Part shown: positions 798 to 45,569 of the stretch, one piece after another
Position numbering within the stretch: position 1 is the stretch's first letter
Layout of the letters: each line of letters begins with the position of its first letter
Translations under genes and position numbers: made by a program
The notes under the pieces: model-generated
The model's database searches: none
Seen by the model: the letters and a program-made list of their open reading frames with translations, nothing else
Told to the model about the DNA's origin: nothing
Assembly: GCA_003094535.1 (NCBI GenBank)
Contig: NATV01000116.1
Coordinates: forward strand, 1 to 64,000
Source: a gamma proteobacterium symbiont of Ctena orbiculata
Lineage (GTDB): Bacteria; Pseudomonadota; Gammaproteobacteria; Chromatiales; Chromatiaceae
Direction: 5' to 3'
Length of the DNA stretch: 64,000 nucleotides

Positions 798-2332
798 TGG
801 CCGCCGAGCAGCTCAGCAGAGGGCCTTCGTTGAGATCCCTGTTGCAGGGATTGGTAACGGTGCCCGCAAACGAGGATTGCGAAGTGACCGCGGTCACTCA
901 GGACAGCCGGGATGTGACACCCGGCGCCCTCTTCCTTGCCTGTGCCGGCGGGCAGCACCACGGATTGGCCTTTGCGGAGCAGGCGGTCTCCCAGGGGGCC
1001 GTGGCGATCGTCTGGGAAATGGATGGCGCGGAGGGGGAGAGGATAGCGGCAAGCCTGAAGTTGACTGCACCCCTGTTGGCTGTACCGCAGCTATCGCGTC
1101 ATGCAAGCTACATTGCCGGGCGATTCTACCGCCACCCCAGTCGCCGGATGAACCTTTACGGGATCACCGGGACCAATGGCAAGACCAGTATCAGCCTGTT
1201 GCTGGCCCAGGCCCTTGGAGAAGAGGTCCCTTGCGGTATCGTGGGTACTCTGGGTGTTGGTATGCCCGGACAGTTGCATCCCACCGGCTATACAACCCCC
1301 GATGCGGTAAGTTTGCAGAGGCACCTCTACGAACTGCAGCAACAGGGGGCGGGCGCTGTTTCCATGGAGGTCTCCTCGCATGCCCTGGACCAGGACCGGG
1401 CAGCGGCCGTGGCATTCGATTGCGCGATCTTCACCAATCTCAGTCGTGACCATTTTGATTATCATCAGACATTTGAAAATTATGCCGCGGCAAAAGGACG
1501 TCTGTTTCAGATGCCGGATCTCAGCAGTGCGGTGATCAACCTCGACGACAGCTTCGGCAAAAGCCTTGTCGGGTCCCTGGCGGAGGGAGTGAAGCTGCTT
1601 GGCTACACGCTGAAGCCGGCAGGCGATCTGCCTGCCGGTCTTGATGGCTGGGCGCGGGCCCTGGCAATCGATCCCACACCCGGGGGCATGCGGATCGGCA
1701 TCTCGACTCACGCGGGTGAGGCGGAACTGCAGAGCAAACTATTCGGCCACTTCAATGTGGCCAACTTGTTGGCGGTGCTGCTGGTGCTGTTGCATCGGGG
1801 CTGGTCGATGCAACGCAGCGTGGCTGTGCTTTCGAAACTCCACACCGTACCCGGCCGCATGGAGTTATTTGGTGGCGGCGAGAGGCCAAGCGTGGTGGTC
1901 GATTACGCCCATACCCCGGATGCCCTGGAAAAGGCCCTGCAGGCCCTGCGCGCCCATTGTCCGGGCAGCTTGAGTGTGGTGTTCGGTTGCGGTGGAGACC
2001 GCGACCGGGGTAAGCGCCCGCTCATGGGCGAGTTGGCTGAGGGGCTGGCCGAGCGGGTGGTTGTCACCGATGACAATCCCCGCAGCGAGGCGAGCAGTGA
2101 GATTATCCAGCAGATCCTCGCAGGAATGAAGCAGCCGGAAAGAGTGCGGATCGAACCTGATCGGCGCCGCGCCATCCGTGCGGCCATCGTTGATGCATCA
2201 GCGGGTGATCTTGTGCTGGTAGCGGGCAAGGGGCATGAGGATTACCAGCTGGTTGCGGGGAAGGTTCTCCATTTCGATGACCGTGAGGAAGTCACAGCCG
2301 CCCTCGAGGCATGGCCGGGGGTGATGGAGTGA
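794..2332 (+). CDS. murE: UDP-MurNAc-L-Ala-D-Glu:meso-DAP ligase MurE
   Basis: GITGTNGKTS ATP-binding motif, DYAHTPDALEKAL, DNPRSE motif; dcw position. Confidence 0.96.
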   Translation: MMAAEQLSRGPSLRSLLQGLVTVPANEDCEVTAVTQDSRDVTPGALFLACAGGQHHGLAFAEQAVSQGAVAIVWEMDGAEGERIAASLKLTAPLLAVPQLSRHASYIAGRFYRHPSRRMNLYGITGTNGKTSISLLLAQALGEEVPCGIVGTLGVGMPGQLHPTGYTTPDAVSLQRHLYELQQQGAGAVSMEVSSHALDQDRAAAVAFDCAIFTNLSRDHFDYHQTFENYAAAKGRLFQMPDLSSAVINLDDSFGKSLVGSLAEGVKLLGYTLKPAGDLPAGLDGWARALAIDPTPGGMRIGISTHAGEAELQSKLFGHFNVANLLAVLLVLLHRGWSMQRSVAVLSKLHTVPGRMELFGGGERPSVVVDYAHTPDALEKALQALRAHCPGSLSVVFGCGGDRDRGKRPLMGELAEGLAERVVVTDDNPRSEASSEIIQQILAGMKQPERVRIEPDRRRAIRAAIVDASAGDLVLVAGKGHEDYQLVAGKVLHFDDREEVTAALEAWPGVME

Positions 2333-29181: not shown

Positions 29182-29259
29182 CGTGAGTGAGCGCGGTTGG
29201 ATTGTTTGAGCTTCCCTTCCGAGCCTGGCGGACCCTGGATCCGTTGCAGCGCTCCTCGG
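29182..29259 (-). promoter_or_regulatory. S-adenosylhomocysteine (SAH) riboswitch upstream of ahcY
   Basis: Minus strand CCGAGGAGCGCTGCAACGG...GTCCGCCAGGCTCGG...AACCGCGCTCAC matches the SAH riboswitch conserved core (CCGAG/CTCGG P1, GAGCGC/GCGCTC pseudoknot) in the ahcY 5' leader. Confidence 0.92.
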
Positions 29260-29271
29260 AGAGGGGGTGTG

Positions 29272-43092: not shown

Positions 43093-43449
43093 ATGGATAT
43101 TGTCTTTATCCGGGACTTGCGTGTCGATACCGTGATAGGTATCTACGACTGGGAGCGAAAAATCAGGCAAACGGTGATCTTGGATCTTGAGATGGGAGCA
43201 GATATCGCCAAGGCGGCCTCAACCGATGCGATCGAGGATACCCTCGACTACAAGGCGGTGAGTAAACGCCTTTTTGCCTTCGTGCAAGAGAGTGAATTCC
43301 AGTTGGTCGAGACCCTGGCGGAACGCTGTGCCGAGATTGTATTGAAAGAGTTCGAAGTGCCCTGGGTACGCTTGACGCTGAACAAGGTCGGTGCGGTCAG
43401 CAGCGCCCGTGACGTAGGCGTGATTATCGAACGGGGCCGGCGTGACTGA
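43093..43449 (+). CDS. folB: Dihydroneopterin aldolase
   Basis: MDIVFIRDLRVDTVIGIYDWERKIRQTVILDLEM, DTLDYKAVSKRL; the longer ORF start at 42787 is not supported. Confidence 0.94.
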   Translation: MDIVFIRDLRVDTVIGIYDWERKIRQTVILDLEMGADIAKAASTDAIEDTLDYKAVSKRLFAFVQESEFQLVETLAERCAEIVLKEFEVPWVRLTLNKVGAVSSARDVGVIIERGRRD

Positions 43450-43951
43450 ACGCAGGCTGGTCAATGCCTGGCTGAGTCTGGGCAGCAATCTGGCACCGGA
43501 GATCCATATTCCCACGGCGCTGCGCGAACTTGAACGCCTGTTCGGTGATCTCAGGATCTCCCCCATCTATGAGAGCCGTTCCATCGGTTTCGAAGGCGCT
43601 AATTTTCACAATCTGGTTGTGGGCATCCTTACCGACCATTCACCCAGAGAGTTGGTTGCGGAACTGCGCGAGGTGGAAAAGCGACACGGCAGGGAGCGCA
43701 CCCCGGAGAAGTTCTCTCCCCGTACCTTGGATATAGATCTGCTCACCTATGGCGAGCAGATACTCGATGACGGTCCGATCCAGCTTCCCCGGGATGAGAT
43801 CCGGAAATACGCATTTGTCCTGCTCCCTCTGTCGGAAGTGGCAGGGGACGAGATAGAGCCCCGGTCCGGGCGCACCTACAGCCAGTTGTGGGAGTCGTTT
43901 GAGGGTCAGGATCAGGACCTGTGGCGGCTCGATGGGGGCAGCGGTCTATAG
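43442..43951 (+). CDS. folK: 2-amino-4-hydroxy-6-hydroxymethyldihydropteridine pyrophosphokinase
   Basis: AWLSLGSNLAPEIHI, ESRSIGFEGANFHNLVV, FSPRTLDIDLLTYGE, LPRDEIRKYAFVLLPL. Confidence 0.93.
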   Translation: MTERRLVNAWLSLGSNLAPEIHIPTALRELERLFGDLRISPIYESRSIGFEGANFHNLVVGILTDHSPRELVAELREVEKRHGRERTPEKFSPRTLDIDLLTYGEQILDDGPIQLPRDEIRKYAFVLLPLSEVAGDEIEPRSGRTYSQLWESFEGQDQDLWRLDGGSGL

Positions 43952-44025: not shown

Positions 44026-44062
44026 AAAAAAAAACCCTGGCACCCTATCCCTGGGCGCCAGG
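44026..44062 (-). terminator. Orphan Rho-independent terminator on the minus strand
   Basis: Minus: CCTGGCGCCC-agggata-GGGTGCCAGG then U9; the single mismatch is a G.U wobble on minus but A.C on plus, favouring minus; no minus-strand CDS upstream. Confidence 0.8.
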
Positions 44063-44155
44063 ATCTCGTGTCGCAATGATTGGTTGGCAATTGGTTTCAA
44101 TCCATGGACGTCCCTGTTCCTTGCTGCTGTCCGTTGCTTCCTTGTATGCGACAGT
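44026..44155 (-). ncRNA. Candidate intergenic small RNA (about 130 nt), GGA-rich, ending in the orphan terminator
   Basis: Minus-strand TAGAAT -10-like box just upstream; closing stem TGTCGCA(44153-44147)/TGCGACA(44075-44069); five GGA motifs within 41 nt; terminal hairpin plus U9. Confidence 0.55.
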
Positions 44156-44327
44156 TACATTCTATGTGAATAACCTCAGAAAAAATGCAGGATTGATCTC
44201 AAATCCACGTAGGCATTTTCTGACACGGTGGGTGCAGACAACTTGATTCACCGACGCTTCTTTTGAAACAATCCGTCCCCACTATCAATCGGGTCGTTTG
44301 ACCGTGAATCCTCGAGGAAAAATCTCC

Positions 44328-45569
44328 ATGCCGCTGATCAGAGCATTCCCTGGACTGCGCCCCGCCGATGGGCGGGCAGTCGATGTCGCCGCCCCCCCCT
44401 ATGATGTCATGAACGAGGCCGAGGCCAGGGAGATGGCCCATGACCGTCCCTGGAGTTTTCTCCATATCTCGAGGCCGGAGATCGACCTTCCCCAGGGGAC
44501 CGATCCCTATGCCCCGGAAGTCTACGCCAAGGCGGCGGAGAATCTGCAGAGGATGGAGCGAGAGGGCGTCTTGATCCGGGACCGGAAGCCCTGTTTCTAT
44601 GTCTACCGCCTGACCATGGGCGGTCATCGACAGACCGGGCTGGTGGCAGCGGCTTCGGTGGAGGCCTATGACAGCGACCGCATCAAGAAGCATGAATTCA
44701 CGCGCCCGACGAAGGAGGATGACCGGGTGCGCCAGATCGATGCATTGAATGCCCAGACGGGCCCCGTTTTCCTGGTCTATCCGAGTGCGCCCAAGGTTGA
44801 CGCACTGCTCAGTGAGATATCGCAGCAGCCAGCTGAAATGGATATCACCGCCGCGGATGGGGTCAGGCACGAGGTCTGGCCCTTGGATGACGAGGAGAAG
44901 GTCGATCTGCTGACCCGGGAGTTCGACCGCATGCACGCCCTCTATGTCGCAGACGGGCATCACCGGTCCGCCGCGGGCTCGAGGGTGGCCGCGGCGAGGA
45001 GAGCGGCAAACCCGAACCATACCGGGGATGAGGCCTACAACTACTTCCTCAGCGTTATCTTTCCCCATAGCCAGATGCAGATCCTCGACTACAACCGGGT
45101 TATCAAGGATCTGCACGGCCTCGACAAGGCGGACTTTCTGAACCGGGTCGAGGCGGTGTTCCAGGTGACCCCCAGCGAACAGCCGGTCAAGCCGGATCAC
45201 AGCGCTGAGTTCGGCATGTATCTGGATGGACAGTGGTATCGCCTGCAGCTCGACTCGTCTCGGATCCCCGCTGATGATCCCGTGGCACGACTCGATGTCA
45301 GTCTGTTGGCTGACAATCTGATCGAACCGATCCTCGGTATCTCCGATCCACGTCGCGACACGCGGATCGATTTCGTCGGCGGCATCCGCGGCCTTTCCGG
45401 TCTGGAACAGCGGGTCGATTCCGGGGAGATGGCGGTGGCATTCTCGCTTTTCCCCACCAGTATGGTGCAGTTGATGGCGGTAGCGGATGCCGGCGAGGTA
45501 ATGCCGCCGAAATCGACCTGGTTCGAACCGAAACTGGCGGATGGTCTGGTAAGCCACCTGCTTGACTGA
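44328..45569 (+). CDS. DUF1015 family protein
   Basis: MPLIRAFPGLRPADGRAVDVAAPPYDVMNEAEAREM...HPLYVADGHHR-like (HALYVADGHHRSAAG) signature. Confidence 0.9.
   Translation: MPLIRAFPGLRPADGRAVDVAAPPYDVMNEAEAREMAHDRPWSFLHISRPEIDLPQGTDPYAPEVYAKAAENLQRMEREGVLIRDRKPCFYVYRLTMGGHRQTGLVAAASVEAYDSDRIKKHEFTRPTKEDDRVRQIDALNAQTGPVFLVYPSAPKVDALLSEISQQPAEMDITAADGVRHEVWPLDDEEKVDLLTREFDRMHALYVADGHHRSAAGSRVAAARRAANPNHTGDEAYNYFLSVIFPHSQMQILDYNRVIKDLHGLDKADFLNRVEAVFQVTPSEQPVKPDHSAEFGMYLDGQWYRLQLDSSRIPADDPVARLDVSLLADNLIEPILGISDPRRDTRIDFVGGIRGLSGLEQRVDSGEMAVAFSLFPTSMVQLMAVADAGEVMPPKSTWFEPKLADGLVSHLLD

Follow-up and report, generated by a model that had tools for sequence, protein, structure and literature searches.

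A putative Csr/Rsm-type small RNA gene in bacterial symbionts of clams and tubeworms, with complementarity to the csrA mRNA leader

Does the gap between folK and a DUF1015 gene in the 64,000-nucleotide stretch of symbiont DNA analyzed here (the window) encode a small RNA (sRNA) that titrates CsrA/RsmA, as an earlier note proposed while marking the functional link as an inference? The locus and its parts are as follows.

44027 to 44155, minus strand: putative small RNA gene, ~125 to 130 nt, start inferred (± ~5 nt), covariance model match of 144.8 bits
44159 to 44164, minus strand: −10 box TAGAAT (almost genus-wide as TAGAMT)
44147 to 44153, minus strand: 5′ arm of the closing stem, UGUCGCA (DNA TGTCGCA), with compensatory changes in relatives
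44069 to 44075, minus strand: 3′ arm of the closing stem, UGCGACA (DNA TGCGACA), with compensatory changes in relatives
44036 to 44062, minus strand: terminator hairpin, both sides changed in 11 of 12 pairs, GGA in the loop
44053 to 44062 and 44036 to 44045, minus strand: terminator stem arms CCTGGCGCCC and GGGTGCCAGG, pointing leftward
44026 to 44034, minus strand: terminator U-tract of nine U
43442 to 43951, plus strand: folK (HPPK; Pfam PF01288), convergent downstream neighbor
44328 to 45569, plus strand: DUF1015 gene (Pfam PF06245), divergent upstream neighbor

The leftward terminator with nine U, the 7-bp closing stem, and the TAGAAT ~5 nt ahead of that stem (found at exactly 5 nt) that the earlier note had described are all present on the minus strand, and the terminator is the longest match of the terminator scan. 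Its argument that a G·U pair favors the minus strand is borne out by 55 relatives, which give 60 G·U cells versus 21 A·C cells. The minimum free energy of the RNA is −44.2 kcal/mol, compared to −32.2 ± 3.4 kcal/mol for shuffled sequences (z = −3.6), and is better than that of all 200 shuffles. The locus qualifies as a free-standing intergenic gene with its own Rho-independent terminator, while its promoter is inferred from the −10 box only.

A nucleotide search of 56 genomes recovered the sRNA from 22 of 22 Candidatus Thiodiazotropha genomes (lucinid clam symbionts, according to the named records) with 76 to 94% identity to the window; no match was found outside Candidatus Thiodiazotropha in those 56 genomes. 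The folK-DUF1015 site is constant across the genus. A genus-derived covariance model identified relatives in 51 of the 146 genomes sampled from the family and in 24 of 61 genera, including Sedimenticola and tubeworm symbionts, and the tubeworm-symbiont loci share the neighbor arrangement seen in Candidatus Thiodiazotropha. Among 55 diverse sequences, 13 pairs of the closing stem and terminator have changed on both sides, with 135 compensatory cells compared to 37 in shuffles. The test was repeated with 53 sequences including paralogues; the two tests together give 13 to 14 of 19 pairs and 130 to 135 cells versus ~36. Shifting the stem partners abolishes the covariation signal. Swaps in the closing stem among relatives include C-G to U-A and C-G to A-U. 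The earlier note had stated that a sequence not conserved beyond the strain would refute its proposal and had suggested looking for covariation among relatives; the sRNA is kept genus-wide and further, and compensatory change is strong in both stems. The same data bear on whether this is a free sRNA at all, since its transcription toward folK would also fit an RNA antisense to folK or a 5′ leader on the minus strand. However, the strong covarying terminator stops the RNA ahead of folK, no minus-strand gene lies downstream, the RNA is conserved next to a freely diverging folK side, and relatives occur at other loci, such as typA. We find a folK leader or antisense RNA scarcely credible and treat the locus as a free-standing sRNA gene.

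Rfam scans of the window gap at E values up to 10 gave no match to CsrB, CsrC, RsmX, RsmY, or RsmZ, and scans of ten relatives' loci, including a paralogue, at E values up to 1 gave no match to any Csr/Rsm family. Since no Rfam family matches, the RNA would represent a new Csr/Rsm-type family; as judged from sequence, it is a previously uncatalogued sRNA gene of clam- and tubeworm-symbiont bacteria.

Several other matches were set aside. Rfam matches to HSR-omega and CRISPR were judged to be due to chance. A weak model match on contig C68 of the window's own genome (G000) was rejected because it has one GGA and no UvrY box, and the matches L192, L194 to L197, and L200, all outside the family and without the box, look like chance or terminator-only matches. 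L078 (Collinsella) is a motif match by pattern only. Separately, an S-adenosylhomocysteine (SAH) riboswitch occurs at window positions 29182 to 29263 (minus strand), with 68.5 bits versus a gathering score of 37.

If the RNA binds CsrA, its GGA motifs would be the expected contact sites.

44139 to 44141, minus strand: GGA site 1 (AAGGA), invariant in the genus
44130 to 44132, minus strand: GGA site 2 (ACGGA), invariant in the genus
44118 to 44120, minus strand: extra GGA (AAGGAAC), common to the window and sister genome G019 only
44108 to 44117, minus strand: CsrA consensus hairpin ACAGGGACGU (AC-ANGGAN-GU) with GGA site 3; ACANGGANGU is genus-invariant
44101 to 44103, minus strand: GGA site 4 (AUGGA), invariant in the genus
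44048 to 44050, minus strand: GGA site 5 in the terminator loop, invariant in the genus

In the oriented genus alignment, GGA is invariant at five sites while neighboring positions vary. The five GGA motifs in 41 nt that had been claimed are there (RNA positions 15 to 55), and a sixth, which the earlier note did not list, lies in the terminator loop. The claim of high GGA density stood only in part: the raw count does not exceed expectation convincingly (6 versus a shuffle mean of 3.7; P ~0.09), whereas the ANGGA form is clearly enriched (6 versus 1.1; P = 0.0002). In the hairpin of site 3, GGA is predicted to be unpaired with a probability of 0.95, and the genus-invariant ACANGGANGU hairpin fits the CsrA SELEX consensus RUACARGGAUGU (PMC7652899). 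The RNA meets the Csr/Rsm class criterion of several GGA motifs in loops matching the CsrA consensus.

Transcriptional control offers a second class criterion, a GacA/UvrY-type inverted repeat upstream of the gene, and this is also met.

44208 to 44225, minus strand: UvrY/GacA-type inverted repeat TGTCAG-AAAATG-CCTACG, its center ~64 nt ahead of the inferred start

The box, which the earlier note missed, lies within the upstream sequence TGTCAGAAAATGCCTACG; for reference, UvrY of Escherichia coli binds TGTGAGAGATCTCTTACA at csrB (PMC4682653). It occurs 70 to 73 nt ahead of the model start in 59 of ~80 relatives and was not part of the search model. No good −35 hexamer was found in the sRNA promoter, which fits an activator-dependent promoter.

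Other features of the upstream region were also recorded. A second, partial UvrY half-site lies ~22 bp downstream of the main box (in the window, at ~44186 to 44208, minus strand), and the boxes seen at 70, 92, and 113 to 114 nt in different relatives differ successively by about two helical turns. The sequence TTTTGAAACAATCC (44261 to 44274, plus strand), located between the UvrY box and DUF1015, is invariant in 22 of 22 genus genomes and nearly invariant in the tubeworm-symbiont loci too; it is probably a promoter or regulator site of DUF1015.

An independent test used the box alone, searched in three genomes. This search led to a paralogue between typA and pip (G000, contig C113, positions 2025 to 2148, minus strand), whose box is, apart from the window site, the one conserved in all three genomes ahead of a GGA-rich, terminator-bounded RNA. 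The remaining boxes in the three genomes were rejected because no such RNA lies downstream. The paralogue box sits at 92 nt, i.e., two helical turns further out. A covariance model (R2) detected both copies in 22 of 22 genus genomes and four tandem copies at typA in five genomes, giving five sRNAs per genome. The four-copy arrays are L203, L204, and L205 (the typA-pip gaps of G016, G010, and G012, respectively) and likewise those of G002 and G007. In the G016 array, a separate UvrY box and a separate terminator accompany every copy; the one closest to pip, with three GGA motifs, is degenerate. The typA site is more widespread than the folK-DUF1015 site and reaches other families.

Titration of CsrA further requires that CsrA and its BarA-UvrY/GacS-GacA control system be encoded, and they are. 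In the window's own genome, UvrY/GacA scored 270.9 bits (below the NCBIfam equivalog cutoff of 280), its gene being followed by a uracil-DNA-glycosylase-like gene and then uvrC. A BarA-like hybrid kinase scored 727.7 bits, again below the equivalog cutoff (890); the BarA N-terminal model PF09984 did not detect this kinase in the same genome, whereas the NCBIfam model did. The csrA gene was identified for 20 of the 22 congeners, with a product near-identical to E. coli CsrA. The csrA of the window's own genome falls in a contig gap of the draft, contig C76 stopping between lysC and the expected place of csrA, so a naive gene search would report csrA as absent. We rejected true absence in favor of an assembly gap. 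This gap, between C76 and C77, lies between lysC and the tRNA-Ser side. Extra divergent CsrA-like genes were noted beside the main csrA in G001, G002, G006, G007, G008, G016, and G020.

Conservation, covariation, the upstream box, the paralogue found from the box, and the encoded Csr system all lend support to the proposal of a CsrA/RsmA-titrating sRNA. By inference, phosphorylated UvrY/GacA, receiving its phosphate from the BarA-like kinase, would bind the box ~64 bp upstream and turn on the sRNA promoter, which lacks a good −35 hexamer. The ~125-nt RNA, with its five invariant GGA sites, would then sequester CsrA dimers, as inferred from motif, structure, and genetic context, and this sequestration would free CsrA-controlled mRNAs. 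We hold with good confidence that this is a Csr/Rsm-type sRNA that sequesters CsrA and most likely also pairs with csrA mRNA, in the absence of transcript, binding, or pairing data.

The case for pairing starts from an element that does not look like a CsrA site in its sequence and that had also been overlooked in the earlier note.

44080 to 44090, minus strand: genus-invariant element UUGCCAACCAA, with complementarity to the leader of csrA mRNA

The complement of UUGCCAACCAA was searched in two genomes, and 1 of its 59 places in G004 lies a short distance upstream of csrA, on the same strand as that gene. The csrA leaders of 18 congeners were then read, and all carry GGCTTGGTTGGCAA, which is exactly complementary to UUGCCAACCAA and, in the leaders measured, lies ~73 to 85 nt ahead of the start codon; the sequence downstream of it varies widely. 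The csrA leader of the window's own genome is missing from the assembly. For window-type RNAs, the core complement is 11 to 13 nt long, and the chance of such a match in one leader of one genome is ~0.001. We used the length of exact complement and not duplex energies, because whole-length energies ignore internal structure.

A genome from a different genus (G148, a single contig of 2.6 Mb, of which 1.6 Mb was scanned) served as an out-of-sample test. Its sRNA reads CUGAGUUUGCCAACCAAGCC. If the pairing is real, the G148 csrA leader should follow the flank of this sRNA (AAACUC) and not the Thiodiazotropha flank (AAUGG or AAAGG). In the leader, GGGTTGGTTGGCAAACTCAG, the core lies 62 nt ahead of the ATG, and sRNA and leader share 17 contiguous complementary bases, flank included. 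The flank of the sRNA (CUGAG) and that of the leader (CUCAG) both depart from Thiodiazotropha, in step. Within the 1.6 Mb, no complement to the sRNA is longer than the 17-mer at csrA (~0.02 of that length would be expected on both strands); the one other 17-nt complement pairs with the GC-rich 3′ part of the sRNA. In a third genus, represented by the tubeworm symbiont G175, csrA was absent from the 400 kb examined. The criterion for a base-pairing sRNA, seed complementarity that is conserved and covaries, is met, with one genus outside Thiodiazotropha examined.

These data also weigh on whether the RNA is no more than a CsrA-sequestering sRNA, with UUGCCAACCAA a structural or protein site and the match to the csrA leader coincidental or otherwise caused. 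All features of the Csr class are satisfied without pairing, the exact core is missing from 20 of 81 aligned sRNA copies, and whole-molecule duplex energies between the sRNA and csrA are unremarkable in several species and often so within the genus. However, coincidence does not readily explain a leader element invariant in every congener read amid variable surroundings, or flanks in G148 that changed together to extend the match. The UUGCCAACCAA element is also more exposed on average than the rest of the RNA (0.60 versus 0.44), with parts of it predicted to be paired inside the window's own RNA. Sequestration without pairing is unlikely in our estimation, though it cannot be dismissed. If the shared sequence were instead a DNA-binding protein site, placed in opposite orientations in the sRNA gene and the csrA leader, no RNA pairing would be involved; RNA-level complementarity as such cannot be told apart from an inverted DNA site. 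Yet a protein site should keep a single consensus across genera, whereas sRNA and leader flanks changed in step, and a position deep within the transcribed sRNA would be odd for an operator; we consider such a site very improbable. Given complementarity that is both conserved and covarying, the sRNA most likely base-pairs with csrA mRNA, the pairing itself being inferred.

What pairing would do to csrA was approached by folding 15 distinct genus leaders. In these predictions, the 5′ end, ACCAGUC, has two alternative partners: UUGGU within the element and a GACUGG adjoining the Shine-Dalgarno sequence. When the element was kept unpaired, as it would be by pairing with the sRNA, 11 of the 15 leaders moved to the Shine-Dalgarno-side form, the probability of that helix rising from a range of 0.03 to 0.49 to one of 0.86 to 0.99; the other four are already in this form, and no switch is predicted there. 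In most genus leaders, pairing of UUGCCAACCAA with the conserved leader element would accordingly be predicted to free the 5′ segment to sequester the Shine-Dalgarno region of csrA, which would reduce CsrA synthesis alongside CsrA activity. The modeled folds suggest that sRNA pairing represses csrA, but the direction of the effect remains open, because the same switch was not evident in folds of the G148 leader. That the sRNA titrates CsrA and also flips the csrA leader from a hairpin hiding ACCAGUC to a helix sequestering the Shine-Dalgarno region, with one UvrY signal cutting both activity and synthesis, is a possibility that we advance only tentatively.

The pairing might also act in reverse, with an abundant csrA leader sponging or destabilizing the Csr sRNAs and thereby shielding CsrA from titration. 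In gill-dwelling Ca. T. endolucinida, csrA ranks first in the reported list of annotated genes with high transcription, with a median TPM of ~80,000 (PMC13137333). Five sRNA copies in each of five genus genomes would also fit such an arrangement. TPM values of very short genes such as csrA may be inflated, however, direct data are lacking, and the leader switch predicted above would point rather to csrA translation as the process affected. We regard reverse action as a serious rival, if on balance an unlikely one, and continue to favor an sRNA that sequesters CsrA and pairs with csrA mRNA.

Among known systems, the RNA resembles RsmX, RsmY, and RsmZ of Pseudomonas, with which it shares a similar size (RsmX is 110 nt), multiple GGA motifs (6 to 10 in the Rsm RNAs), a GacA-type upstream box, and occurrence in several copies, which may be in tandem (rsmX-1/rsmX-2; PMC7911923). 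What sets the window sRNA apart from these RNAs is its lack of an Rfam covariance match, its long closing stem, the GGA of its terminator loop, and its conserved csrA-complementary element. CsrB and CsrC of enterobacteria likewise antagonize CsrA under the control of UvrY, carry ANGGA-type sites, and have an inverted repeat of 18 bp upstream (PMC4682653). CsrB, however, has 22 GGA motifs (PMC7652899). E. coli CsrB and CsrC are also longer (369 and 246 nt versus ~125 nt), their UvrY site lies at about −183 instead of about −64, and their longest complements to the csrA leader are 8 and 7 nt. McaS of E. coli is, to our knowledge, not a dedicated UvrY-controlled Csr sRNA. It resembles the present RNA as a base-pairing sRNA that also antagonizes CsrA (PMC7652899, citing Jorgensen 2013), but the accessible portion of that source describes no pairing with csrA mRNA. 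In Bacillus subtilis, CsrA promotes the pairing of SR1 with ahrC mRNA; this target is not csrA, and the source does not describe SR1 as sponging CsrA (PMC11882849).

In the open-access papers searched, we found no report of a Csr sRNA pairing with csrA mRNA and none of any sRNA from Candidatus Thiodiazotropha; both negatives are weak, because only open-access literature was covered. Nor did we find anything in these papers on what restrains CsrA in these uncultured symbionts. If the csrA pairing is true, a sponge RNA would also target the message of the protein it sponges, a layer of control undescribed for Csr sRNAs in the papers searched. A UvrY-controlled CsrA antagonist, present in up to five copies per genome, would be a direct candidate for a switch in the symbiont lifestyle.
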